A stretch of 64,000 nt of DNA, taken from Hymenobacter aranciens (GTDB taxonomy: Bacteria > Bacteroidota > Bacteroidia > Cytophagales > Hymenobacteraceae). Of the stretch, positions 2,903 through 15,703 are shown piece after piece (the stretch's first letter is position 1; every line of letters starts with the position of its first letter). The notes below the pieces were generated by a model. It had not been told where the DNA came from. It saw only the letters and a list, made by a program, of their open reading frames with translations, and did not search any database. The stretch is taken from the NCBI RefSeq assembly GCF_030580865.1, contig NZ_JAUQSY010000005.1:62001-126000 (forward strand), written 5' to 3'. Position numbers and translations under genes: made by a program.

Positions 2903-3703
2903 GAGCCTGTTAAAGACAATAATATATTGAATGATAAAAATAAATCGACAGGGTTATAAATTCGTAAATCCGACCAAGGATGTACGAAACCGACCTGACC
3001 GATTATTCAATGGCAAGTTATACAGGAAATCCTGCCTGGTACGCACTGCCGTGAGTATTCGCATTGCCTGACAGTTAACGCTTTGTTTGGCCAAAAGTGG
3101 TTATCAGTGGTGATTATTACTATATTATTTCCGCCGTTTCCGCTGGTCTATTATTATTTCCGACGCTGGTAAGGGGATAGCCGCTGGGCCGGGTTTGACC
3201 AAGCGCTGATGCGCCGCTACATATAAGCGGCTGCGCCTTCTGGCCAGCCGAGCCTGAACGTGGCCATGCTCGACGCCCAATCGGTCAAATGTAGTGAACG
3301 CGCATGCCCGCCAAAGGCTTCGACGAGTACAAAAAAACAGCTATGCAAGCGGCAATTGCTCATCGACAGGGAGCGCTGTTGGCTGACCACGTCGGACCAG
3401 CGCACGAAAGCGACCGGACCGGTGGCAAAGCCGCGCTACAAAAGCTGTCGCAGCAAGGATTTGAGCGACTGGCTGAGTGGACCCGTGCGCACTATGGCTG
3501 GCAGTTGCAAACAATCACAGGTCTGACGGGCAGAGAGAGATTGACTACACCGCTCACCCGCTGGGTTGTAAAGCATTTTATTAGCTGGCTCCACTGGGAC
3601 CGCGGCTCAGCCGCGATTTTGAATTCGAAACCAGCAGCGCCAAGGTAACCATCTATCTGCCTATCCAGCATTAGATACATTATCTGTGAATTTTAACAGG
3701 CTC
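2903..3703 (+). mobile_element. Degenerate IS5-family insertion sequence with intact terminal repeats
   Basis: The ends are perfect inverted repeats: GAGCCTGTTAAA at 2903-2914 and TTTAACAGGCTC at 3692-3703, with one further matching base outside each end (2902 and 3704). The size, about 800 bp, and the single decayed transposase inside fit the IS427/IS1031-like part of IS5. Flanking trinucleotides are TTA on the left and TGA on the right, both matching a TNA target, but they are not identical, so the target duplication has decayed or the ends are a recombinant. The left part (2910-3180) is clearly more AT-rich than the surroundings. Confidence 0.8.
2980..3674 (+). pseudogene. IS5-family transposase, multiply frameshifted
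   Basis: The start MYETDLTD and, one frame over, QWQVIQEILP are the typical beginning of IS5-group transposases. Further pieces in changing frames read FPPFPLVYYYFRRW near 3130-3165, SVAMLDAQSVKCSERAC near 3257-3306, KGFDEYKKT near 3310-3340, GPAHESDRTGGKAALQKL near 3393-3450, HYGWQLQTITGLTGRERL near 3490-3540, RWVVKHFISWLHWDRG near 3560-3605 and finally RLSRDFEFETSSAKVTIYL ending at TAG 3672-3674. At least three frameshifts and internal stops make it non-functional. It lies wholly between the terminal repeats. Confidence 0.85.
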
Positions 3704-4792: not shown

Positions 4793-5294
4793 GCCGGATG
4801 AGAGTAAATGATGGAAAAAGAACCGTATAGATAAAAGTAATCCTAAAATCCTTGGACTAGTGCCACGAAGTACGAAAAAGAGGGATAGCAGGTGAAAATA
4901 AACGGCGTGAGGCCGGTGTTGATGACCGGGTGAAGTTGACCACCACAGGGGCTGGCAGCAGCGGGCAGCACCGATGGGCCCGCACCACCTGCTCTTGGCA
5001 GTACTGGAAAGAACGCCCATACCACCCGCCACTCCTCCTGCACCCACCGCGCCTGCAGTGGCTGCGCACCGGAGAGTACTGTGCCTATCCAGTCCAGTCA
5101 ACCCCAACGGTCGCGGCCGTCTCTCCTCAAGTCACAAGCCTCCCTATGCGATTTGCCTACCTGCGTAGTCCGGGTGCCTGTTACCCCCTCCCATATAACA
5201 TTCTTAGATAACTCCGTCACGAAACGACCGGTACTACTCGAGGTAGCTTCGACGCGGTACCTTCCCGGTTTGGAGTATGATGCCCAATAATGCC
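4793..5294. other. Intergenic region without a recognised gene
   Basis: About 500 bases between the divergent toxin-antitoxin-like pair and the tRNA-like array. Short open frames exist on both strands but none gives protein-like composition or a known family. The part nearest the antitoxin start (4793-4860) is AT-richer and probably holds its promoter. Confidence 0.4.
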
Positions 5295-5304
5295 GATTGT
5301 TTCC

Positions 5305-5312
5305 TACTTTTA
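5305..5312 (+). promoter_or_regulatory. Probable -7 box of the first tRNA-like gene
   Basis: TACTTTTA matches the Bacteroidota -7 consensus TAnnTTTG in all but the last base and lies eight bases upstream of the tRNA 5' end, so transcription would begin at or next to the mature 5' end. No clear -33 TTG is seen at the usual distance. The equivalent position before the second tRNA-like gene is TAATTTCA at 5433-5440, a weaker match. Confidence 0.45.
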
Positions 5313-5319
5313 ACGCGCG

Positions 5320-5391
5320 TAAACTGTAGCTCAATGGAAGAGCGCCATCTTGCCAGGATGGAGGTTGCCAGTTCGAGCCTGGCCAGTTTAC
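5320..5391 (+). tRNA. tRNA-like gene, GCC (glycine) anticodon, atypical body
   Basis: A full cloverleaf folds: acceptor TAAACTG/CAGTTTA, U8-A9, D stem GCTC/GAGC with G18-G19 in the loop, anticodon stem CCATC/GATGG with loop TTGCCAG (U33, anticodon GCC, purine 37), five-base variable loop, T stem GCCAG/CTGGC with loop TTCGAGC. No CCA is encoded. The acceptor starts with a U1-A72 pair, is AU-rich and is followed by C at position 73; none of this fits a normal glycine tRNA, which has a G1-C72, GC-rich stem. It shares its body with the next tRNA-like gene. Whether it is charged with glycine is doubtful. Confidence 0.75.
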
Positions 5392-5447
5392 CGACTTTTA
5401 TACTCCAGGCGATGTCTTTGAAGATTGTTTTCTAATTTCAGTACAGG

Positions 5448-5519
5448 TAAACTGTAGCTCAAATGGAAGAGCATCCGTCTCCAAAACGGAGGTTGCCAGT
5501 TCGATTCTGGCCAGTTTAC
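5448..5519 (+). tRNA. tRNA-like gene, CCA (tryptophan) anticodon, atypical body
   Basis: The cloverleaf is as complete as in the upstream copy: acceptor TAAACTG/CAGTTTA identical to copy 1, D stem GCTC/GAGC with one extra loop base, anticodon stem TCCGT/ACGGA with loop CTCCAAA (U33, anticodon CCA, A37), four-base variable loop, T stem GCCAG/CTGGC, loop TTCGATT. No CCA tail is encoded and position 73 is C, whereas bacterial tRNA-Trp has G73. Both sides of the anticodon stem differ from copy 1 yet still pair. The 3' end lies only about 20 bases before the SDR start codon, so the tRNA sits in or directly ahead of the mRNA leader. Confidence 0.75.
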
Positions 5520-5538
5520 CACTTTTTATCTATAGGCG

Positions 5539-6909
5539 ATGTCTTTGCAGGAAGAGCCCCTTTTTTCAACGGAGGAATGGCAAGCTTGCCTGAAAGTGCT
5601 GCAAATCCTTTCCCGCAATCCCCACCTGGCCGACGACTCCCCGCAGCTCCAAGGGCTGGTGGCTAAGTTGAATCAGAAGGCCCGCAAATCGAAACGCAAA
5701 CAAACCCTCCAACAGCAGCAGGAGTCGGACCGGGCCATCAAGGAAAATACCTTCCTCTGCCGTCAGGAATCGGATACCCCCCTACTACCGGCCTTGCCGG
5801 AATTACCGGCTGTGCAGCCGGAGGGCAACCAGTATCTACACCGGGCCACCCGGTGTTATGTGTGCAAGGGACGTTATGTTGAGGTACACGCTTTTTACCA
5901 TTTGCTTTGCCCGGCTTGTGCCCGACTCAATTTTGATTGTCGCTTTCAACGGACGGAACTACGGGGCCGAATCGCCTTGCTAACGGGTGGACGCATAAAA
6001 ATTGGCTTCGAAACGGCTTTAAAACTGCTCCGGGATGGCGCTCGGGTAATCGTGACCACCCGCTTTCCGCAGGATGCCATCAGCCGATACGCCAAAGAAA
6101 CCGATTTTGAGCGCTGGAAAGACCGGCTCCAGATTTATAGCCTTGACCTTCGGGATGTCAGGGCCGTGGAGGATTTTATCGGGTACCTGAAAGGGACGTT
6201 GTCGCACCTGGACATCATCATCAACAATGCGGCGCAGACTATTCGGCGCCCGCGGGCATTTTATGAGTCCTTACTGCTAGCCGAAGGGGCGACACCAGCG
6301 AACCAAGCGTTATTGGCTACGCCCTCGCATATAAAATCCTTCGACGGGCTTTCGGAGGCCCTCCCATCCTACTTCCCCACCCACTTACTCGACCGGCACG
6401 GGCAGCAGGTCGACCTTCGTCCGCACAACAGTTGGCGGCTGCGCCTGGAGGAGGTGGAAACCGCCGAATGGCTGGAAGTACATCTGGTCAATGCCATGGC
6501 CCCCTTTCTGTTGAACAGCAAGCTGCAGCCGCTGTTGCTGAAGTCGCCGTTCGAGCGGCGGTTTATTGTGAACGTCTCGGCGATGGAGGGACAATTCAAT
6601 CGCGCCTCCAAAACCGCCTTCCATCCGCATACCAACATGGCCAAAGCGGCCTTGAATATGATGACCCGTACGTCGGCCGCTGCGTATGCCCGTGACCGCA
6701 TTTATATGAACAGCGTGGATACCGGGTGGATTACCGACGAAGACCCCCACCCCCGGAAAGCCCGCAAGCGCAGTGCCGGTTTCGTCCCGCCCCTGGATGA
6801 ACTCGACGGGGCCGCCCGGATTTACGACCCCATCGTGCGGGGAATCAACCAGCCGCAGGAACCGCTGTCGGGGTATTTCTTAAAAGATTATCAGCCGCAT
6901 CCCTGGTGA
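5539..6909 (+). CDS. Zinc-ribbon/SDR fusion protein with altered catalytic site
   Basis: 456 residues. Residues 1-75 are helical and charged; 106-127 hold two CxxC pairs (Cys106/109 and Cys124/127, with His117 and His121 between), a likely zinc ribbon. From 142 a short-chain dehydrogenase/reductase Rossmann domain follows: TGGRIKIG cofactor loop at 149-156, LDLRD near 202-206, NNAAQ at 229-233, Ser347 in NVSAM. The expected YxxxK is HTNMAK, with Lys369 kept but Thr365 where the tyrosine belongs, so ordinary SDR redox chemistry may be lost or done differently. The start ATG is part of the sequence duplicated with the tRNA-like genes. The LRR gene follows after 19 bases, presumably in one operon. 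Substrate unknown. Confidence 0.8.
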   Translation: MSLQEEPLFSTEEWQACLKVLQILSRNPHLADDSPQLQGLVAKLNQKARKSKRKQTLQQQQESDRAIKENTFLCRQESDTPLLPALPELPAVQPEGNQYLHRATRCYVCKGRYVEVHAFYHLLCPACARLNFDCRFQRTELRGRIALLTGGRIKIGFETALKLLRDGARVIVTTRFPQDAISRYAKETDFERWKDRLQIYSLDLRDVRAVEDFIGYLKGTLSHLDIIINNAAQTIRRPRAFYESLLLAEGATPANQALLATPSHIKSFDGLSEALPSYFPTHLLDRHGQQVDLRPHNSWRLRLEEVETAEWLEVHLVNAMAPFLLNSKLQPLLLKSPFERRFIVNVSAMEGQFNRASKTAFHPHTNMAKAALNMMTRTSAAAYARDRIYMNSVDTGWITDEDPHPRKARKRSAGFVPPLDELDGAARIYDPIVRGINQPQEPLSGYFLKDYQPHPW

Positions 6910-6928: not shown

Positions 6929-8098
6929 ATGAAAGAAACCTCTGGCCCTATCCCTGTTCCGATTGTTTGTCCGGTGCAGGAAACCGTTCGGGAGTCCCCG
7001 GACCTGGCAGCCCAGCTGGAGCCGCTATTGGCGTATTTGTGCACCAATCAGGCTCCCGAAAACGACCAGTCCTTTCCCCGGGGCACCATCACGTCCGATG
7101 GCCGACTGGATTTGTGCAAACAGGACATTGGCCCAGCCGGGGCAAAATTAGTAACCGAGGCACTGGCGCAGAACACCTTTGTCCGGCATCTATTGATGGG
7201 CACGAACGGAATAGGTGATGAAGGAGCAGCCCACCTGGCATCGTTGCTCGAGCAGAATACGGCTCTTCAAACCATCTATTTGGGGTGCAATTATATCCAG
7301 ACGGCGGGAATGGCGGCCCTTACCGGGGCGCTTCGGGAGAATACCACCGTCGAAGGCCTATGGCTGAAGCGAAACGCCCTACATGCCCCGGGAGTGGCGC
7401 AACTAACGGACTTGCTCCGGCATAATCGTGCCCTGCGGGTAGTAGATTTAGTGAATACCAACCTGGGTGCGGAAGGCTTCCGGAGCTTCATGAAAGTGCT
7501 GATTGAAACCAACCGGACCGTAGAGCGAATCTATCTAGGCGGCAATCAGCTTGGGGAGCGGGAAGCGCCCTACCTGGCGGAGCTGCTTACGCAAAATAAG
7601 CAAATCGTATCGCTGCAGCTGAACGTCAACCATCTGGGTGACAAAGGCGCTTGCATACTGGCAGAAGCCCTCAGTAGCAATGAAACGCTGCAAGAACTAG
7701 GACTGGCCAGCAATGGCATCGCCTCGACAGGGGCCATTGCGTTGCTGCAAGCCCTTCAGCATCATCCGGCTCTTCGAGTGCTCGACCTGGGCTACAGTCC
7801 TTCCACTCAGGTTCTAGGGGCCGCCGCCAACCAGTTGGACGATGAGGTAGCCCGGGAGCTGGCGGCTTTTCTCCGTACGAACCAGCAGATTCACAGCCTG
7901 AATTTGGTCCGTCATCAGTTTACGGAAAGCGGATTTCAACACTTGCTGAATGGCTTAGAACATAACGCTTCGCTGCAACACCTGCAGTTAGACGGCAACC
8001 CGCCGGAGCCCATCAAAGAATGGCTCCGAACCAGACAACGTCCAAGCGCTTCCAACCCGAACAGTTTAGTAACCGCCATTCGCAGTGTTTACCGCTAG
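6929..8098 (+). CDS. Leucine-rich-repeat protein, ribonuclease-inhibitor type
   Basis: 389 residues. After a short N-terminal segment, about ten repeats of roughly 28 residues run from about residue 55 to 370, each with the pattern LxLxxNxIxxxGAxxLAxxL (for example LLMGTNGIGDEGAAHLASLL and LGLASNGIASTGAIALLQAL). This is the ribonuclease-inhibitor/NLR class of LRR, a horseshoe scaffold for protein binding. No signal peptide, membrane segment or enzymatic domain is visible, so it is probably a cytoplasmic binding partner. It starts 19 bases after the SDR stop and is likely co-transcribed with it. Function unknown. Confidence 0.85.
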   Translation: MKETSGPIPVPIVCPVQETVRESPDLAAQLEPLLAYLCTNQAPENDQSFPRGTITSDGRLDLCKQDIGPAGAKLVTEALAQNTFVRHLLMGTNGIGDEGAAHLASLLEQNTALQTIYLGCNYIQTAGMAALTGALRENTTVEGLWLKRNALHAPGVAQLTDLLRHNRALRVVDLVNTNLGAEGFRSFMKVLIETNRTVERIYLGGNQLGEREAPYLAELLTQNKQIVSLQLNVNHLGDKGACILAEALSSNETLQELGLASNGIASTGAIALLQALQHHPALRVLDLGYSPSTQVLGAAANQLDDEVARELAAFLRTNQQIHSLNLVRHQFTESGFQHLLNGLEHNASLQHLQLDGNPPEPIKEWLRTRQRPSASNPNSLVTAIRSVYR

Positions 8099-8653: not shown

Positions 8654-9403
8654 TTAGTGGTCCAGCCAGTGCTTAAAGGCCGGCGCACGGCCGGCACTGA
8701 CAACCAGAGCCTCCCCCGCCGCCGGGGGGGCTATCTGCAGCACCAGGCGGCCCTTGAAATACGGCCGGATTTCCTGCACCGCCCCGATGCTCAGGATAAA
8801 CTGGCGGTTAATGCGAAAGAAGGTCCGGGCGTCCAGCTGGCCTTCGAGCTGGTCGAGCGTGTCGGGGATAATGAACCGCTTGCCCGCGTGAGTGACGAGG
8901 AACACCACACCTTCTTCAGCCAGAAAGTACGCCACGTCGTCCACCGGCACGGCTTTCAGAGCCTGCCCGGACTTCACTAGGAAGCGTGAGCGGGGCGTGC
9001 TGTGGACCAGGCGCTGCACGTTCGCTACGGCGGCCGGCAGCGTCGCAGGGTGCAAGGTTTCGTACTTCTGCAGGGCGCGTTCCACTTCCGCGGCTTGTAG
9101 GGGCTTGAGCAGGTAGTCCACGCTGTTCACTTGAAAGGCCTGGATGGCGTAGGCGTCGTAGGCGGTGGTGAAAATGACGGGCGCGCCCACCGCCACCTGC
9201 CGGAAGATGTCGAAGCTGTTGCCGTCCGACAAGTGGATGTCGCAGAAAAGCAAATCGGGGGCTGGCTGTTCGCGCAGCCATTCCACGGCTTCTTCCACCG
9301 AGCCCAGGGCCGCCAGAATGCGTACGGCGGGCCGGAGGCGGGTGAGCAGGGTGGCCAGCGCCTGGGCGGCCAGGGGCTCGTCTTCAATGAGTAGGACTCT
9401 CAT
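8654..9403 (-). CDS. LytTR-family response regulator
   Basis: 249 residues starting at MRVLLIEDE. Residues 1-120 are a receiver domain with the acidic pair ED, phospho-acceptor Asp in LLFCDIHL and Lys in YLLKPL. Residues about 145-245 are a LytTR DNA-binding domain (FLVKSGQALKAVPVDDVAYF, then FFRINRQFILSIGAVQEI). Its ATG overlaps the stop of the sensor kinase gene in an ATGA motif, so the two are translated together and form a LytS/LytT-type system. The target genes are unknown; the divergent DUF2339 gene is a neighbour but not a proven target. Confidence 0.9.
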   Translation of the reverse strand: MRVLLIEDEPLAAQALATLLTRLRPAVRILAALGSVEEAVEWLREQPAPDLLFCDIHLSDGNSFDIFRQVAVGAPVIFTTAYDAYAIQAFQVNSVDYLLKPLQAAEVERALQKYETLHPATLPAAVANVQRLVHSTPRSRFLVKSGQALKAVPVDDVAYFLAEEGVVFLVTHAGKRFIIPDTLDQLEGQLDARTFFRINRQFILSIGAVQEIRPYFKGRLVLQIAPPAAGEALVVSAGRAPAFKHWLDH

Positions 9404-10419
9404 ACGGCGGGGGCGGTCAGGAGCGGGAGGCGGACGATGAAGGATTCCGCCGTGGGCACGATTTCCACGGGGCGGTCGGTGAGGTGCTGGTAGCGGCGCT
9501 GGATGTTGAGCAGGCCCAGGTGGGTGGACGTTACCGCGTCGGGGCGGGGCTGCCGGTTGTTTTCGACCACCAGCCGGCCGTCGGCGGTGGATACTTTTAT
9601 AACCAGGGGCTTGCGAATGGTAGAGCCGTTGTGCTTGATGGCGTTTTCCAGCAGCATCTGCACGGCGGTGGGGGGTACCAGGGCCTGCTCGCAGGCCGGA
9701 GCCACGTCCCATTCCACGCGCAGGGCCGCGCCGAAGCGGGTTTCCATCAGGCTGGCGTAGGCGCGCACCAGGGTCATTTCGCGGTGCAGCGGTACCAGCG
9801 GTTGCGCCCCGGAATCGAGCAGGGCGCGGTAGACCTCTGAGAGTTGGCCGAGGAACTGCCCGGCCCGGTCCGGGTCAATATGAATCAAGGACCCGAGCAC
9901 GTTGAGGCTGTTGAACAGGAAGTGGGGGTCCACCTGGTTTTTCAGGGCTTCGAACTGCGCCTGGAAGGTTTCTTTCTGCAGCTGCGCCACCCGCACCACT
10001 TCCTGCGCCAGGTGTTGGCGGACATGCTCGCGCTCCACGAAGTAGTAGAAGAACAAGGACAGCACCGCGCTGACCGCCAGCGAGACGCGCAAGGCTTTGG
10101 GCGTGATTTCCGACGTGGGCACTAGGTAGTGCTGCGGGATGGTGAAGAACACCAGCCAGAAAACCAGGCTGACCAGCACCACGCAGAGCCCTTCCAGCAG
10201 GGCTTTCGCCGAGACGGGCAGCGTGGTCAGCCGATCGGCGCCAAAGAGGCGGGCAAGGGGCGCATGCACCCAGAAGGTGGGCAGTAGAAAGGCAAATACC
10301 AGCAGCAGTTGCTGATAGCCGACCAGCGCGCCCCCCCACCAGGTGCCATACTGGATGAACACCGCCACGTGAAAGACTACCGTGGCGGCCAGGGCGGCCA
10401 GCACAATTTTTCGAATCAT
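9400..10419 (-). CDS. LytS-type sensor histidine kinase
   Basis: 339 residues. The N-terminal 150 residues contain four hydrophobic segments, compatible with four transmembrane helices, and no large external sensor domain. Then comes the His_kinase domain with the phospho-acceptor His in QVDPHFLFNSLNVL and an ATP-binding N box LLENAIKHN. The gene overlaps the response regulator by four bases. The signal is not apparent. The divergent intergenic region to the DUF2339 gene (10420-10609) is short enough to hold promoters for both. Confidence 0.9.
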   Translation of the reverse strand: MIRKIVLAALAATVVFHVAVFIQYGTWWGGALVGYQQLLLVFAFLLPTFWVHAPLARLFGADRLTTLPVSAKALLEGLCVVLVSLVFWLVFFTIPQHYLVPTSEITPKALRVSLAVSAVLSLFFYYFVEREHVRQHLAQEVVRVAQLQKETFQAQFEALKNQVDPHFLFNSLNVLGSLIHIDPDRAGQFLGQLSEVYRALLDSGAQPLVPLHREMTLVRAYASLMETRFGAALRVEWDVAPACEQALVPPTAVQMLLENAIKHNGSTIRKPLVIKVSTADGRLVVENNRQPRPDAVTSTHLGLLNIQRRYQHLTDRPVEIVPTAESFIVRLPLLTAPAV

Positions 10420-10609
10420 GGGGTCGGGGGGGAGGCGACGAAGGGCGCCTCGACAAAATTACCAGCCCGCCGGGCGAAAAGCCGCATGCGGCCCGCCGAT
10501 TCACGGGGCTCCTATCCCGATTCAAGTCCCCGGAATCCGCCTTCGCCAGAAAACGCTTTCGGACGGGCGAAAAGCGCGGGAGGTTTGTCCTATTCTCCTT
10601 CTTCACCTG

Positions 10610-13600
10610 ATGCCCTCGCGTATGGATGCTTCCCTTTTAGCTTTACTTATTGCTGTAGCAGCTGCCTGGCGGGTGTGGGGCCTGCCTGGGCGTCTGCTGG
10701 CGTTGCAGGAGGAGTTAAAAATCCGCAAAGCGGAGCACAACCAGCAGCAGGCCGAACTGAAAACGGAGCTGCTCCGCTTGCGCGAACAGCTGGCCAGTCT
10801 GCTGAAGGAGGGAACGTTGCGCAAAGAGGACTCTGTCGTAGTAGCGATGGCGCCTTCGCCAGCTAGCGAGCCGATTACCCCGGTGCCGGTGGCTGTGCCA
10901 GCTACTGCCGCACTCGCGCTGATTAAGCCAGCGGTTGCGGAGCCCGTCGTAACAGCGCCAGTGCCAGAGCCTGCGCCGGTTCCATCACCGGTTGTGCCAG
11001 CGGCACCGGCTGTTCAGGCAGCACCAACGCCTGCGCCTACCCCCGCGCCGGTTACCGTTCCTCCAATGCCCGTGCCCACGCCTGTGCTGCCAGCACCACC
11101 GGTGGCTGCGCCCGTGCCACAGCCGGTTTTTACCCCGGCCCCGGTAGCCGTTCCTGCCCCCGTTCCGGCAGCCCCGCCCACGTTGGCCCCCCGGCCCGTG
11201 GCGGCGGCCGATTCCGCTTTGGCAGCTACCCCGGCCCCCTCGCCCGCGCCACTGGTCCCGCCCACGCCGCCGATTCCGCCCCGGCCACCGCGGCGCCCGC
11301 CGCCTCCGCCGGAGCCCACCGGGCCCATCTGGTGGGAGCGGGCTGCTACGCTCCTGCTCGAAAACTGGACCGGTATCCTTGGGGCCGTGGTGCTGGTCAC
11401 GGGCGTCGGCTTCCTGGGAATCTACGCGGCGCTGCGGGTGAGTGCGCCCGTGCGGTTCCTGCTGATTTGTGCGTTCGCGGCCGGCTTATTGGGGGTGCGG
11501 TTTGCGCTCCGCCAGAAAGGCTTTGCGCGGCAGCTCAACAGCTGGCTGCTGAGTAGCGCGGCGGCTATCTTTCTGTTTGCCTGCGTGGCGGCCGTGAGCA
11601 TCGAAGGCCTGCGCTGGGTTACCGCGCCCTGGGACTACCTGCTGCTGCTGGCCGGGGTGGGAGCCAACCTGCTGCTGGCCTGGCGCGCCAGCCGCGAGGA
11701 AGTGGCGACGCTGCACGGCGTACTGAGCTTAGTAGCCCTGGCGGTGTTGCCCCCCACGGTCCTCACGCTGGGGACCGCGGCGGCGGTGACGGCGTTCACC
11801 ATTGCCATCACGTATCGCCAGCTGTGGAAGTACCAGCTGCTGCTCAGCATCGCCAGCTTCTTTGCCTTCCACCTGTACTGGCATCAGCAGCTGACGGACA
11901 TCCCCAATACCCAGCGCCTGCTGGCCATGGGGTTGGTGGGGCTCGTGGGCGTAGCCGCAGCCGTGGTGCAGTACCGTAGCGTGTACGCCCAGCGGCGGTT
12001 CGAACCGCTGCTTTTTACCGCCCACCTGCTCAACTGGACCTGCCTGGGCATCAACCTGTATATGTACAGCACGGGCTCCATCTGGAAAACCATTCCGCTG
12101 GGCCTGGGTGCGTTGCTTACCTTCTGGGCCGGGCGCCAAGCTAAAAAGCTCGGCATCGGCTGGCTGTTCCAGACCGACACCATCATCGCGCTGATTCTGG
12201 CGCTGGCCACGGCCTTGTCGCTGCAGGGCTGGCACGCCACCAACTCGGTTATCCTGCTGTTTATGCTGCTCGAAGCGCTGCTGGTCGCACTGGTCATGGC
12301 CCGGCAACGCGAAGCGCTGGTGTACCGGGTGGCCCTGTCCGTGGCCGGCCTGGCGGGGGGCGGCCTGCTAGTGCTCGCGGCCCTCACCGCCGGTTCCAGC
12401 CTGCCCCCGGCCCTGTACCGCCAGGCCTTCGTGCTGGCGCTGTCGGGGTGGGCGGGGCTGGCGTTCGCCCGGCTCACGTATCAGCAGCCCCTGCTCCGGG
12501 CCGACGTGAAGGCTGGGTTGGGGGCTACCTCCACCGCCGAGTCCGCCCGCAACCTGCTGGCCGGTTTTGCCGGGTTGGCCGGCCTGTTGCAGGCCGGGGC
12601 CGGGCTGCTGCTGACGTGGGTGCTGTTTAGCTGGCCGGATGCGCCGGTGCTACCACTGGTGGGTGCCCTCCTAACCCTGGGCGGCGGCGCCCTGGCCCTG
12701 GCGGCCTGGGTACGCACGTCAGCCCACACGCCGGACTGGGTGCGGCAACAGCAGCTGCTCCTAGCGCAGTTCTTTGCGGTGTTGGCCGGGCTGGGCCTGC
12801 ACGAGCTGAACCTGAGCTGGTCGGTGGTACTGGGCATCCTCTACGCCGAGAACGTGGCCGTGGCCTTGCTGGCGGCCCGGCGGCGCGAACCCCTGCTGTC
12901 CCACATAACCCAGGCCGGGGCCCTCCTGACCGGTGGCGGGCTATTGCTAACCGCCTGGGCGAAGGTAGGTAACGCCCTACCCCATGAACTTTACCGCGAC
13001 GCCCTGGTGCTGGCCCTGACCGGCTGGCTGAGCCTGGCATTCCTGCGCCTGGCTTACCGGCAGCTCTCGGCTAATGGCTCCCCGGACGCACCCACCGAGA
13101 TTTCCGAAACCGACCAAGGCCTGCTCAGTGGCTTTGCGGGGCTGGCCGCGCTGCTGCAAGCCAGCACGGGCTTGCTGCTGGCGCGCGTGCTGTTTGGCTG
13201 GCAGCAGGCGCCGGTAATTCTGCTGCTGGCGGCGCTGCTGGTGATGGGCGGCGTCGCGCTGGGACTGGCCGCCTGGGTGCGCGCCGAGCCCCGGCTACCC
13301 GCTTGGGTGCGGCTGCTACAACTGCTGCTGGCGCAAGCCTTGGCCCTACTCACTGTATTCGGCTTGCACGAGCTGGGACTGAGCTGGCCGGTGGTGCTGG
13401 GGCTGCTCTATGCCGAAAACCTGGTCGTGGTTTTCATTGCCGCCCGGAAGCAGGAGATGCTCCTTTACCGGGTTGCCCTGGGCGGTACCGTTGCTGCCGG
13501 TTTGAGCCTGCTGCTGACGGCCGTCAGCAATGCCGACCACAGCCTGCTACCTACGCTTTACCGGGACGCCCTGGTACTGGCACTGGCTGGCTGGGCGGGC

Positions 13601-15703
13601 ATCTTAATAGGAAACGTGGCTCATCGGCAGCTGCTGTCCCCGCAGCTTGCCGAAGGTCCAGCGAGTGAGCCTGCCGACCGTGACCTGTTGGGCTCCATCG
13701 CCGGGCTGGCGGGCCTGCTGCAGGGCGGCGCCGGGCTGCTGCTGGGGCAGGCGCTGTTCGGCAGGTCGGGGGCGCCGGTGGCCCTCTTGCTGGTGGCGCT
13801 CCTGGGCCTGGGGGGCATTGCGCTGGGACTGGCGGCCTGGGTGCACGCGCAGGGCCTGCTGCCCCGTTGGGTACGGCGCCAGCAACTCGTGTTGGGGCAG
13901 GCGTTGGTGGTGCTGGCCGGGTTGGGGCTGCACGAGGCGGGCCTGAGCTGGCCCGGGGTTCTGCTGGTTTTATATGCTGAAAACCTGCTGGTCGCCCTGC
14001 TGTTAAGGGGCCGCGACGAAGACGACTTGCTGCACCTGCAGGCGTATGTAGTGGTGGTGCTGGCGGCCCTGTTGCCGGTGCTCGTGCCCTACACGTCGCC
14101 GGGCGCCTTCGGGGCCGAGGTGCGGGCGGCCTTGCTCGTCGGGGCGGCCCTGCTCACGGTGGGCTACCAGCTGCGGCACCAGCTGCTGCCGAAAGTGGAC
14201 GATGACTACGCAATGCTCCCCCTCGGCGGCATCCTGCGGCTGCCGGTGCTGGGACTGGCCGTGGGCTGGCTGTTGCTCAGCGGCGGCGCGCTGGTAGTCG
14301 ACCAGGCCTGGGCCGCCTGGGCCCTGGTCGGCTTGCTGGGCGGGCTGCTGTACCTGCGGCAGCGGGTAGCGGCGCCGGGCGTGTGGGCCGGGCTGCTGCT
14401 CACGGCCGTGGGCTACCTGGGCCTGCAGTGGCGCTACGCGCTGTGGCCCCCGGCCGGGCAGCTGGCCAGCGCGGGGGCCGTGCTACTGTACCTGCTGCCC
14501 ACGCTGGCCGTGCCGCTGGTGGGCGCCCGGGTTTCGTGGTGGGCACCGGCCCAGCGGTTCGTGCGCGGGCCGTGGCTGTACCTGCTGGGGCTGCACCTGG
14601 TGGTGGCGCTGGTGGCTGCCGTGCCCGCGGGCCACGTGGCTTACCTCTCGCTGGGCTTTACCGGACTGGCGGGGGCCGCCTTCGCCGCGGCTCAGGTGTG
14701 GCGCCGCCGCTTGCCCAACGATTCGGCCGTGTGGCGGGCCGGCCTTCCCGACCGCTACTTGCTGCACCTCAGCTACGGGCTCTTGACGGCGAGCCTGCTC
14801 ACGCACGGCTACCTCCTCACGCTCCATGAGCAGTTCTTCGGCCAGCCCGCCGAATACAGGACGGCGGCCCTGCTCTTCGCCACGCTGGCGGCCCTGGCGT
14901 TGGCCGCCCCGCCCGCTACGTACCCGGTGTACAACTCCTGGCGCCGGCTGCACCCCTGGCTGCCCGAGGCGGCGCTGCTGTTTGGCACCGCCACGCTGGG
15001 CCACCACGTGCGCACACCCTGGCTGCCGCTGCTGTGGGCGGGGGCCGCGCTGGGACTGACATTCCTGGCGGCCCGCCTTCCCGGGCGCTTGCGGCGGCTG
15101 GCCGTGTACGGCCACCTCTACTACTGGCTGGCCGCTGGCACGGCCAGTCTGGCTTGCCTGCGCTACCTCCGGCCGGAGCAGCTCCTGAGCCCCGAATGGT
15201 GGGGCCTCACCGCCGCTGTGGCCTTGCTGTTTGGCTACGTGGCCCTGGCCCTGCAGGCCAAAAACACCCCTGCTACCGACCTCTCGCCCGCCTGGGACCG
15301 GCTGGCCCGCCCGCCCCGCCGCGTGCTCGAAGCCGGGCTGCTCTACCCAGCTTTCCTGGCCCTTACGCTGCTGCTCGTGCAGTCGTTCGACCGTTCGGTG
15401 CTCACCGTGCTGCTCATGCTGGAAGTGGTGGCCGTCTTCAGCACCAGCCTGCTGCTGCGCCGGCAGGATTTGCGCTACCTCGCGCTGGCCGGGATGCTGG
15501 GCTCGCTGCTCCGGCTGGTGTTTTTCGACCTGAGCCGGAGCGGCACCATCACGCGGGCCTTCGTCTTCATCTTCATGGGCCTGCTGCTGCTGGGCATGAA
15601 TGCGCTGTACGCCCGCTTCAAAGCCCGCTTCACGCCCCAGGATTTGGGGGCCGACGACGTCGCGCCGCAAGGGCTGCCGGAGCCGGACGTTCCGGTTGGC
15701 TAA
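10610..15703 (+). CDS. Giant DUF2339-family polytopic membrane protein with internal repeats
   Basis: 1697 residues from the ATG at 10610 (a second Met follows at 10622; the frame is open further upstream but that part overlaps the divergent kinase and is not protein-like). Residues about 5-25 are hydrophobic, followed by a coiled coil (about 25-65), then a Pro/Ala/Val-rich linker to about residue 240, and from WWERAATLLLENWTGILGA onward dozens of transmembrane helices. WTGILGAVVLVTGVGFLGIY is typical of DUF2339. Three consecutive units of about 190 residues (about 564-756, 757-945, 946-1133) repeat the pattern LYRDALVLALTGW ... GLLQAGAGLLL ... ALALAAWV ... GLHELGLSWPVVLG(L/I)LYAEN. DUF2339 proteins are usually 600-1000 residues. 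Function unknown, probably envelope-related. Confidence 0.85.
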   Translation: MPSRMDASLLALLIAVAAAWRVWGLPGRLLALQEELKIRKAEHNQQQAELKTELLRLREQLASLLKEGTLRKEDSVVVAMAPSPASEPITPVPVAVPATAALALIKPAVAEPVVTAPVPEPAPVPSPVVPAAPAVQAAPTPAPTPAPVTVPPMPVPTPVLPAPPVAAPVPQPVFTPAPVAVPAPVPAAPPTLAPRPVAAADSALAATPAPSPAPLVPPTPPIPPRPPRRPPPPPEPTGPIWWERAATLLLENWTGILGAVVLVTGVGFLGIYAALRVSAPVRFLLICAFAAGLLGVRFALRQKGFARQLNSWLLSSAAAIFLFACVAAVSIEGLRWVTAPWDYLLLLAGVGANLLLAWRASREEVATLHGVLSLVALAVLPPTVLTLGTAAAVTAFTIAITYRQLWKYQLLLSIASFFAFHLYWHQQLTDIPNTQRLLAMGLVGLVGVAAAVVQYRSVYAQRRFEPLLFTAHLLNWTCLGINLYMYSTGSIWKTIPLGLGALLTFWAGRQAKKLGIGWLFQTDTIIALILALATALSLQGWHATNSVILLFMLLEALLVALVMARQREALVYRVALSVAGLAGGGLLVLAALTAGSSLPPALYRQAFVLALSGWAGLAFARLTYQQPLLRADVKAGLGATSTAESARNLLAGFAGLAGLLQAGAGLLLTWVLFSWPDAPVLPLVGALLTLGGGALALAAWVRTSAHTPDWVRQQQLLLAQFFAVLAGLGLHELNLSWSVVLGILYAENVAVALLAARRREPLLSHITQAGALLTGGGLLLTAWAKVGNALPHELYRDALVLALTGWLSLAFLRLAYRQLSANGSPDAPTEISETDQGLLSGFAGLAALLQASTGLLLARVLFGWQQAPVILLLAALLVMGGVALGLAAWVRAEPRLPAWVRLLQLLLAQALALLTVFGLHELGLSWPVVLGLLYAENLVVVFIAARKQEMLLYRVALGGTVAAGLSLLLTAVSNADHSLLPTLYRDALVLALAGWAGILIGNVAHRQLLSPQLAEGPASEPADRDLLGSIAGLAGLLQGGAGLLLGQALFGRSGAPVALLLVALLGLGGIALGLAAWVHAQGLLPRWVRRQQLVLGQALVVLAGLGLHEAGLSWPGVLLVLYAENLLVALLLRGRDEDDLLHLQAYVVVVLAALLPVLVPYTSPGAFGAEVRAALLVGAALLTVGYQLRHQLLPKVDDDYAMLPLGGILRLPVLGLAVGWLLLSGGALVVDQAWAAWALVGLLGGLLYLRQRVAAPGVWAGLLLTAVGYLGLQWRYALWPPAGQLASAGAVLLYLLPTLAVPLVGARVSWWAPAQRFVRGPWLYLLGLHLVVALVAAVPAGHVAYLSLGFTGLAGAAFAAAQVWRRRLPNDSAVWRAGLPDRYLLHLSYGLLTASLLTHGYLLTLHEQFFGQPAEYRTAALLFATLAALALAAPPATYPVYNSWRRLHPWLPEAALLFGTATLGHHVRTPWLPLLWAGAALGLTFLAARLPGRLRRLAVYGHLYYWLAAGTASLACLRYLRPEQLLSPEWWGLTAAVALLFGYVALALQAKNTPATDLSPAWDRLARPPRRVLEAGLLYPAFLALTLLLVQSFDRSVLTVLLMLEVVAVFSTSLLLRRQDLRYLALAGMLGSLLRLVFFDLSRSGTITRAFVFIFMGLLLLGMNALYARFKARFTPQDLGADDVAPQGLPEPDVPVG

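Follow-up and report, generated by a model that had tools for sequence, protein, structure and literature searches.

A family of tRNA-shaped RNAs, alike in body but hypervariable in the anticodon arm, is encoded beside a gene for an SDR-fold protein in Hymenobacter aranciens and in bacteria of many other phyla. The array RNAs occur almost only beside this SDR gene. The system is widespread and apparently undescribed, and it probably has to do with the damage and repair of tRNAs. It probably represents a new class of RNA-guided or RNA-baited system, in which an SDR-fold protein would act with a bank of tRNA-shaped RNAs, the loops would be diversified under selection as toxin baits or exchangeable recognition loops, and LRR or RNA-repair proteins would be accessories.

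The window, i.e., the whole stretch of DNA analysed, is 64,000 nt, and the locus within it consists of two tRNA-fold genes followed by the SDR-fold gene and an LRR gene, all on the + strand. ARAGORN and Rfam RF00005 agree on a tRNA-Gly(GCC) at positions 5320–5392 (RNA 1) and a tRNA-Trp(CCA) at 5448–5520 (RNA 2), with Rfam scores of 58.4 and 61.7 bits (gathering threshold 29). TRF shows a tandem unit of 128 bp in two copies with 78% matches. The two tandem cloverleaf units described in a sequence-only reading of the window are thus confirmed, and that reading also gave the shared acceptor stem (TAAACTG/CAGTTTA), D stem, T stem and C73 correctly; the D-loops differ by one base and the T-loops by a few. 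The anticodon arms are at positions 5345–5361 (CCATC-TTGCCAG-GATGG) and 5474–5490 (TCCGT-CTCCAAA-ACGGA). They do differ, but at 8 of the 10 stem bases and not at all ten as had been stated, and at 4 of the 7 loop bases. Both RNAs have U33 and a purine at position 37 in a 7-base loop, again as first read.

Positions 5283–5319 (+ strand) represent a predicted promoter or leader region. This segment is nearly identical 5' of RNA 1 in a second locus of the same genome, and the sequence 5' of it diverges between the two loci. GGCGATGTCTTTG, from the initial codons of the SDR gene, is found 3' of both window RNAs. A copy of these codons, ATGTCTTTG, is at position 5412, 3' of RNA 1, as part of an SDR-start relic at 5412–5435 (+ strand; ATGTCTTTGAAGATTGTTTTCTAA) whose first codons are the same as those of the SDR gene at 5539; the relic is present 3' of RNA 1 in both loci. 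The presence of SDR first codons in the shared downstream flank implies that the array unit arose by duplication of the RNA together with the SDR start. The SDR-fold protein (456 aa, positions 5539–6909, + strand) begins 18 nt downstream of RNA 2, and the LRR protein (LRR_6, RNI-like; 389 aa, positions 6929–8098, + strand; Pfam PF13516) begins 19 nt downstream of the SDR gene.

Comparison of relatives gives decisive support to the predicted cloverleaf. In RNAfold, RNA 2 has a better fold than every one of 200 shuffled sequences (z −2.9), and RNA 1 has only a modest advantage (z −1.5). Over 39 relatives, 92.8% of stem cells are paired and the covariation score is 0.83, versus 0.27 for shuffled and ≤0.22 for slid controls; together with the Rfam and ARAGORN calls this establishes a cloverleaf with conserved tertiary bases. 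A family covariance model made from 39 array RNAs (R1) scores RNA 1 at 81.4 bits and RNA 2 at 78.3 bits, versus 66.8 bits for the best ordinary tRNA of the genome.

The array RNAs share with ordinary tRNA genes (RF00005) the cloverleaf, U8, A14, G18G19, the T-loop TTCRA and detection by Rfam, but they differ in several properties. A GGAA D-loop, which includes A20, marks 138 of 153 array RNAs, and no member of the genome's set of 45 ordinary tRNAs has it. A15 is usually found with U48 in the array-RNA alignment, where G15-C48 is common in ordinary tRNAs. Half of the array RNAs are without U33 or R37: U33 is present in 67 of 125 distinct 7-base loops, versus 43 of 45 ordinary tRNAs (p 5e-8), and U33 and R37 occur together in 62 of the 125, with R37 present in 44 of the 45 ordinary tRNAs. 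Besides the 125 there are six loops of 6 or 8 bases. Synthetase determinants are missing for several types, with one body serving different anticodons. The Ser-GCT-type RNAs have a variable region of ≤5 nt and no long variable arm, and G3:U70 is found in only 2 of 25 Ala-type RNAs. The U33 and R37 gaps, the odd loop lengths and the missing Ser and Ala determinants show that the family does not consist of ordinary translation tRNAs, although some members, including the window pair, could pass as such.

A census of the genome (48 Rfam hits) shows ordinary Gly-GCC, Trp-CCA and Cys-GCA tRNAs elsewhere, so that the array is unneeded for decoding; the possibility that the window RNAs are the only Gly-GCC and Trp-CCA tRNAs of the genome, which had been raised against the cassette reading below, is rejected. 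The array body is found at one other place in the genome, on contig C12, where two RNAs lie 5' of an SDR-LRR pair whose SDR protein is 91% identical to that of the window. The first of these RNAs is again Gly-GCC and has a compensated stem change, from CCATC/GATGG to CCACC/GGTGG. The second has a Cys-GCA arm where the window has Trp-CCA; compared with RNA 2, 6 of 17 arm positions differ and about 2 of 57 body positions. A separate tRNA cluster of the genome (L042, 240–616; contig C10:33539–33914) contains Trp, Tyr, Ser and Ser tRNAs whose anticodons duplicate ones found elsewhere, and is perhaps from a mobile element.

SDR relatives were gathered from 291 genomes of the order and from a scan of genome contigs, and arrays were called with ARAGORN and R1. 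Arrays are found by SDR genes in Bacteroidota, Cyanobacteria, Gammaproteobacteria (Parabeggiatoa), SAR324, Armatimonadota, Desulfobacterales, Campylobacteraceae and Actinobacteria, and at all of 21 extra loci from Flavobacteriaceae and near relatives. RNAs of the same family are thus present at other SDR/LRR loci, where their absence would have counted against the cassette reading. Altogether array RNAs are present at 46 of 51 distinct loci of the SDR lineage, with 1–9 RNAs each (G674 and G743, apparently the same strains as L122 and L121 since their contigs are equal in length, were merged in this count), whereas the chance of a tRNA by the SDR gene is about 3% per locus. Five loci of the lineage (L081, L087, L089, L091 and L092) have no array RNAs even with filters off, and represent real exceptions or losses. 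Membership is least certain for the four actinobacterial RNAs, which score lower and differ in the D arm. The SDR frame is clear at 43 loci; there 140 of 141 RNAs lie on the same strand as the SDR gene, and the nearest RNA is a median of 10 nt from the frame (upstream at 17 loci, downstream at 26). At L095 the array is in two groups, four RNAs and two (3221–3553, 5797–5964), around proteins of 310 and 221 aa that have no Pfam match and are possible extra components.

The reciprocal searches agree with this linkage. A 19-base D-arm signature matched 13 of 329 Flavobacterium genomes, 12 of them SDR genomes, and 26 of its 27 hits are at the SDR locus; in the sole genome without the SDR, the match is to an ordinary tRNA-Arg that belongs to a tRNA cluster. 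Of the top R1 hits in the 291 genomes, every one bearing GGAA is in an SDR genome, and those inspected without GGAA are ordinary tRNAs (e.g., Gly-TCC, Arg-TCT) except for two truncated loci of no clear class. A chance occurrence of tRNAs beside an SDR gene is rejected by linkage, strand and reciprocal search. None of the 67 members of a sister SDR clade has array RNAs, and on the SDR tree (FastTree) the RNA-presence label needs 6 changes, versus 24 in shuffles. The sister clade itself (L057–L075, L097–L165) is widespread and shares the altered active site (HPHTNMxK) as well as the four cysteines. The module is present in about 4% of Flavobacterium genomes, a patchy distribution that fits a conflict system.

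A comparison of 29 close orthologue pairs shows that the anticodon arm is the variable part of these RNAs. Loops differ by 18.9% (about 17% when one pair with a mis-parsed arm is left out), stems by 9.3% and bodies by 3.8% (p 7e-14), i.e., loops diverge five times faster than bodies, and the anticodon stems still pair despite the divergence. There are identical bodies with changed loops: ATGCCAA to ATGCTAA, and CAATCTC to CTGTCAC (L208 vs L209). Between RNAs of the same locus, bodies are 88% alike on average, stem bases 59% and loop bases 53%. The constant body and swapped arms, which recur beside SDR homologues in many phyla and at the second locus of the genome, strongly support the proposal of the sequence-only reading that the arm is exchanged like a cassette. 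That the arm is free to vary does not hold, since 120 of the 125 distinct 7-base loops have a C in the anticodon (26 of 45 in ordinary tRNAs, p 6e-9) and only 3 have G36 (11 of 45, p 3e-5). The loop TTGCTAA recurs ten times across loci, and 28 of the 125 loops are identical to an ordinary loop of the H. aranciens genome.

The SDR protein (Pfam PF00106, 5e-19) has basic N-terminal helices, a four-cysteine segment resembling a zinc ribbon (C106, C109, C124 and C127 in CxxC...CxxC; positions 5854–5919, + strand) and a Rossmann domain with TGGRIKIG. Its AlphaFold model has a pLDDT of 90, with FabG-type SDRs as its PDB matches. Across 50 SDR relatives there is no variation in the four cysteines, TGxRxKxG or HxHTNMxK. 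The Rossmann fold, the NNA motif and the active-site Ser and Lys are those of classical SDRs (PF00106; FabG, ElxO and others), but the window protein differs by a Lys within its glycine motif (TGGRxKIG), by extra N-terminal helices and by the four invariant cysteines. The Ser-Tyr-Lys triad with YxxxK is absent: Thr365 (HPHTNMxK) stands where the catalytic Tyr is expected, and this Tyr is absent in all 50 relatives. The replacement makes ordinary SDR chemistry doubtful. The cysteine segment may bind zinc, and the N-terminal part may bind the RNA body.

The genes beside the module vary with lineage. An LRR homologue is 3' of the SDR gene at 13 loci in Bacteroidota, Cyanobacteria, Armatimonadota and Actinobacteria. 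In Flavobacteriaceae its place is taken at 24 of 24 distinct loci by a 228-aa protein and/or a DUF434-DUF5616 protein, which by our own reading of the motifs DGFN and SD is PIN/NYN-like. (A paper considered for DUF434, PMC4431377, concerns DUF4343 and was rejected.) RNA-repair enzymes (RtcB, T4-type Rnl1, Pnkp, Pnkp ligase, RlaP) are within about 6 kb at 16 of the 24 loci. Outside Flavobacteriaceae, the window included, no RNA-repair or nuclease genes of the kinds sought are found beside the module. Of the earlier expectation that SDR and LRR homologues would accompany the RNAs, the SDR part therefore stands, but the LRR protein is not obligatory.

The 228-aa family (positions 5289–5975 of L117 and homologues) has no Pfam match, and its AlphaFold model is poor. 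Its C-terminal half is similar to a CdiA-CT tRNase: in the Flavobacterium neighbour, about 95 residues, including a KHxGR motif, match 6D7Y weakly (E 0.001 for a profile of 4 sequences, 2e-4 with 12). 6D7Y is the CdiA-CT domain of P. aeruginosa PABL017, a tRNase (PMC9086364). The match relates the family to the colicin D-like/CdiA-CT BECR tRNases, but the 228-aa protein is outside any secreted toxin and is not found at the window locus; it may represent a chromosomal tRNase tied to RNA repair. It is present in 10 of 150 Flavobacterium genomes, of which 8 also have the SDR. The other two, L222 and L223, keep a repair island, including Hen1, and the tRNase-like gene without the SDR or RNAs, so the island can exist on its own and the module is an optional insert. 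Their islands contain Pnkp, Pnkp ligase, Hen1, an Rnl1-type ligase and two RlaP; that of L222 also has an AbiEii-type ATPase, and that of L223 a SIR2-TPR protein. For a comparison with type III toxin-antitoxin systems, the tRNase-like neighbour is found only in Flavobacteriaceae and is also present without the RNAs.

YrlA and phage tRNAs are the nearest known systems in kind, and neither has the constant body, swapped arms and SDR partner. YrlA is a tRNA-like RNA of the rsr-yrlBA-rtcBA RNA-repair operon that has been discussed as one that might inhibit an anticodon nuclease competitively (PMC7790460). The likeness is a tRNA-like RNA encoded with RNA repair, but YrlA is a single Y RNA containing a tRNA-like domain, and its gene accompanies that of Rsr (Ro), whereas here there are whole cloverleaves in arrays, with hypervariable arms and an SDR-fold partner. 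No Rsr/TROVE protein is present in the subset of neighbours scanned with Pfam. Phage tRNAs have been proposed to act against the anticodon nucleases of their hosts (PMC10264068, PMC11555353). They share with the array RNAs the tRNA fold, altered anticodon loops and, as the role proposed here, a conflict over tRNA cleavage; the arrays, however, are chromosomal, with one common body, a fixed protein partner and many members that are not decodable. Derivation from a phage tRNA array is rejected, since none of 50,697 phage records matches the SDR and only four plasmids have an SDR relative. One viral contig has an SDR relative at its end, and array RNA is absent from the stretch examined. PADLOC defence models give no convincing match. 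Searches of Rfam, Pfam, NCBIfam, PADLOC and the open literature gave no tRNA-fold RNA family in which a hypervariable anticodon arm goes with a fixed protein partner. No description of the system was found in a literature search that covered mainly open papers; an earlier mention may exist in the 2016 survey of RNA-repair systems by Burroughs and Aravind.

We propose, tentatively, that the array RNAs are handled by the SDR protein and act not as adaptors of translation but as decoys or sensors whose anticodon loops are directed at tRNA-cleaving nucleases. A bank of RNAs would be co-transcribed with the SDR-fold protein, probably an RNA-binding protein, and an accessory, here the LRR protein. 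The constant body would be the handle for the SDR protein, and the variable loops would be cleavage targets for anticodon nucleases, whether the cell's own or those of phage or rival toxins. RNAs that are cut or occupied may then spare the real tRNAs or signal damage. In favour of the proposal are the observed linkage to the SDR gene, the diversified loops on a fixed body, the properties that set the RNAs apart from translation tRNAs and, in Flavobacteriaceae, the neighbouring RNA-repair and tRNase-like genes; expression, co-transcription, binding of the body, loop cleavage and protection are predicted steps. The proposal is held at short of even confidence because many loops are without U33, nuclease or repair genes of the kinds sought were not found in other lineages and the anticodon bias is unexplained. 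Half of the loops, having no U33, would be poor mimics for nucleases that require it; the presence of C and avoidance of G36 have no explanation under this model; and the repair island persists without the module (L222, L223), the tRNase likeness is weak and PADLOC offers no defence match. Of the roles first suggested for these RNAs (decoy, cofactor of the downstream protein or special tRNA), a special tRNA for decoding is the least likely.

The main rival is a guide-like role, in which the SDR protein would bind the body and leave the variable loop to pair with a target, or be read by it (mRNA, foreign RNA or another tRNA), so that a swap of arms is a swap of targets. A constant handle with a hypervariable 7-base loop, a frequent lack of U33 and R37, as would befit loops released from decoding, and a tight spacing on the SDR strand that suggests one RNP are all consistent with such guides or adaptors. 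We nevertheless consider them unlikely, since a target was not found and the loops, unlike those of free guides, are biased to natural anticodons and in some cases common to many loci. At the other extreme, the RNAs could be ordinary or decayed tRNA copies located by chance beside a recombination-prone gene; ordinary tRNA finders detect them, and tRNA genes often flank mobile regions. The linkage across phyla, the covariation that maintains all stems, the distinct D-loop and the near absence of array RNAs away from the SDR make this explanation highly improbable.

The anticodon is among the main identity elements for Gly, Trp, Cys, Met and Asp, and glutamyl-tRNA reductase is a reductase that acts on an aminoacyl-tRNA. 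With the NADP-type Rossmann motif of the SDR fold, these properties would fit charged special tRNAs of a non-translational pathway, where the anticodon picks the synthetase and the SDR enzyme consumes (reduces or transfers) the aminoacyl-RNA. This is rather less likely again than guides: the frequent Ser-GCT and Ala types are without SerRS and AlaRS determinants, the catalytic Tyr is replaced family-wide, there are 6- and 8-base loops, and the neighbours in one lineage are for RNA repair and not biosynthesis. A role as spare, nuclease-resistant tRNAs that replace host tRNAs cut in an attack, as proposed for phage tRNAs (PMC10264068), would fit the mostly natural anticodons, the altered stems around a kept anticodon (Gly-GCC in both loci of the H. 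aranciens genome) and the RNA-repair context. It is improbable for RNAs of which many are not decodable, having no U33 or loops of 6 or 8 bases, and lack charging determinants.

If the RNAs are decoys, the arrays would represent a bacterial counter to tRNA-cleaving toxins and phage defences, beside CRISPR spacers or banks of immunity genes, and their loops would be a record of the tRNAs under attack. As guides, they would represent reuse of the tRNA body as a programmable scaffold. The system is present in culturable Flavobacterium, Chitinophaga and Actinomadura and is directly testable.

Two other regions of the window are of note. Positions 69–2567 encode a protein with a LodA-like lysine oxidase C-terminal domain, then a flavin-dependent halogenase-like protein, i.e., a LodA/LodB-like pair. 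An open frame of 1773 aa at positions 10382–15703 has no Pfam matches and adjoins a LytTR response regulator and histidine kinase pair (8654–10419).
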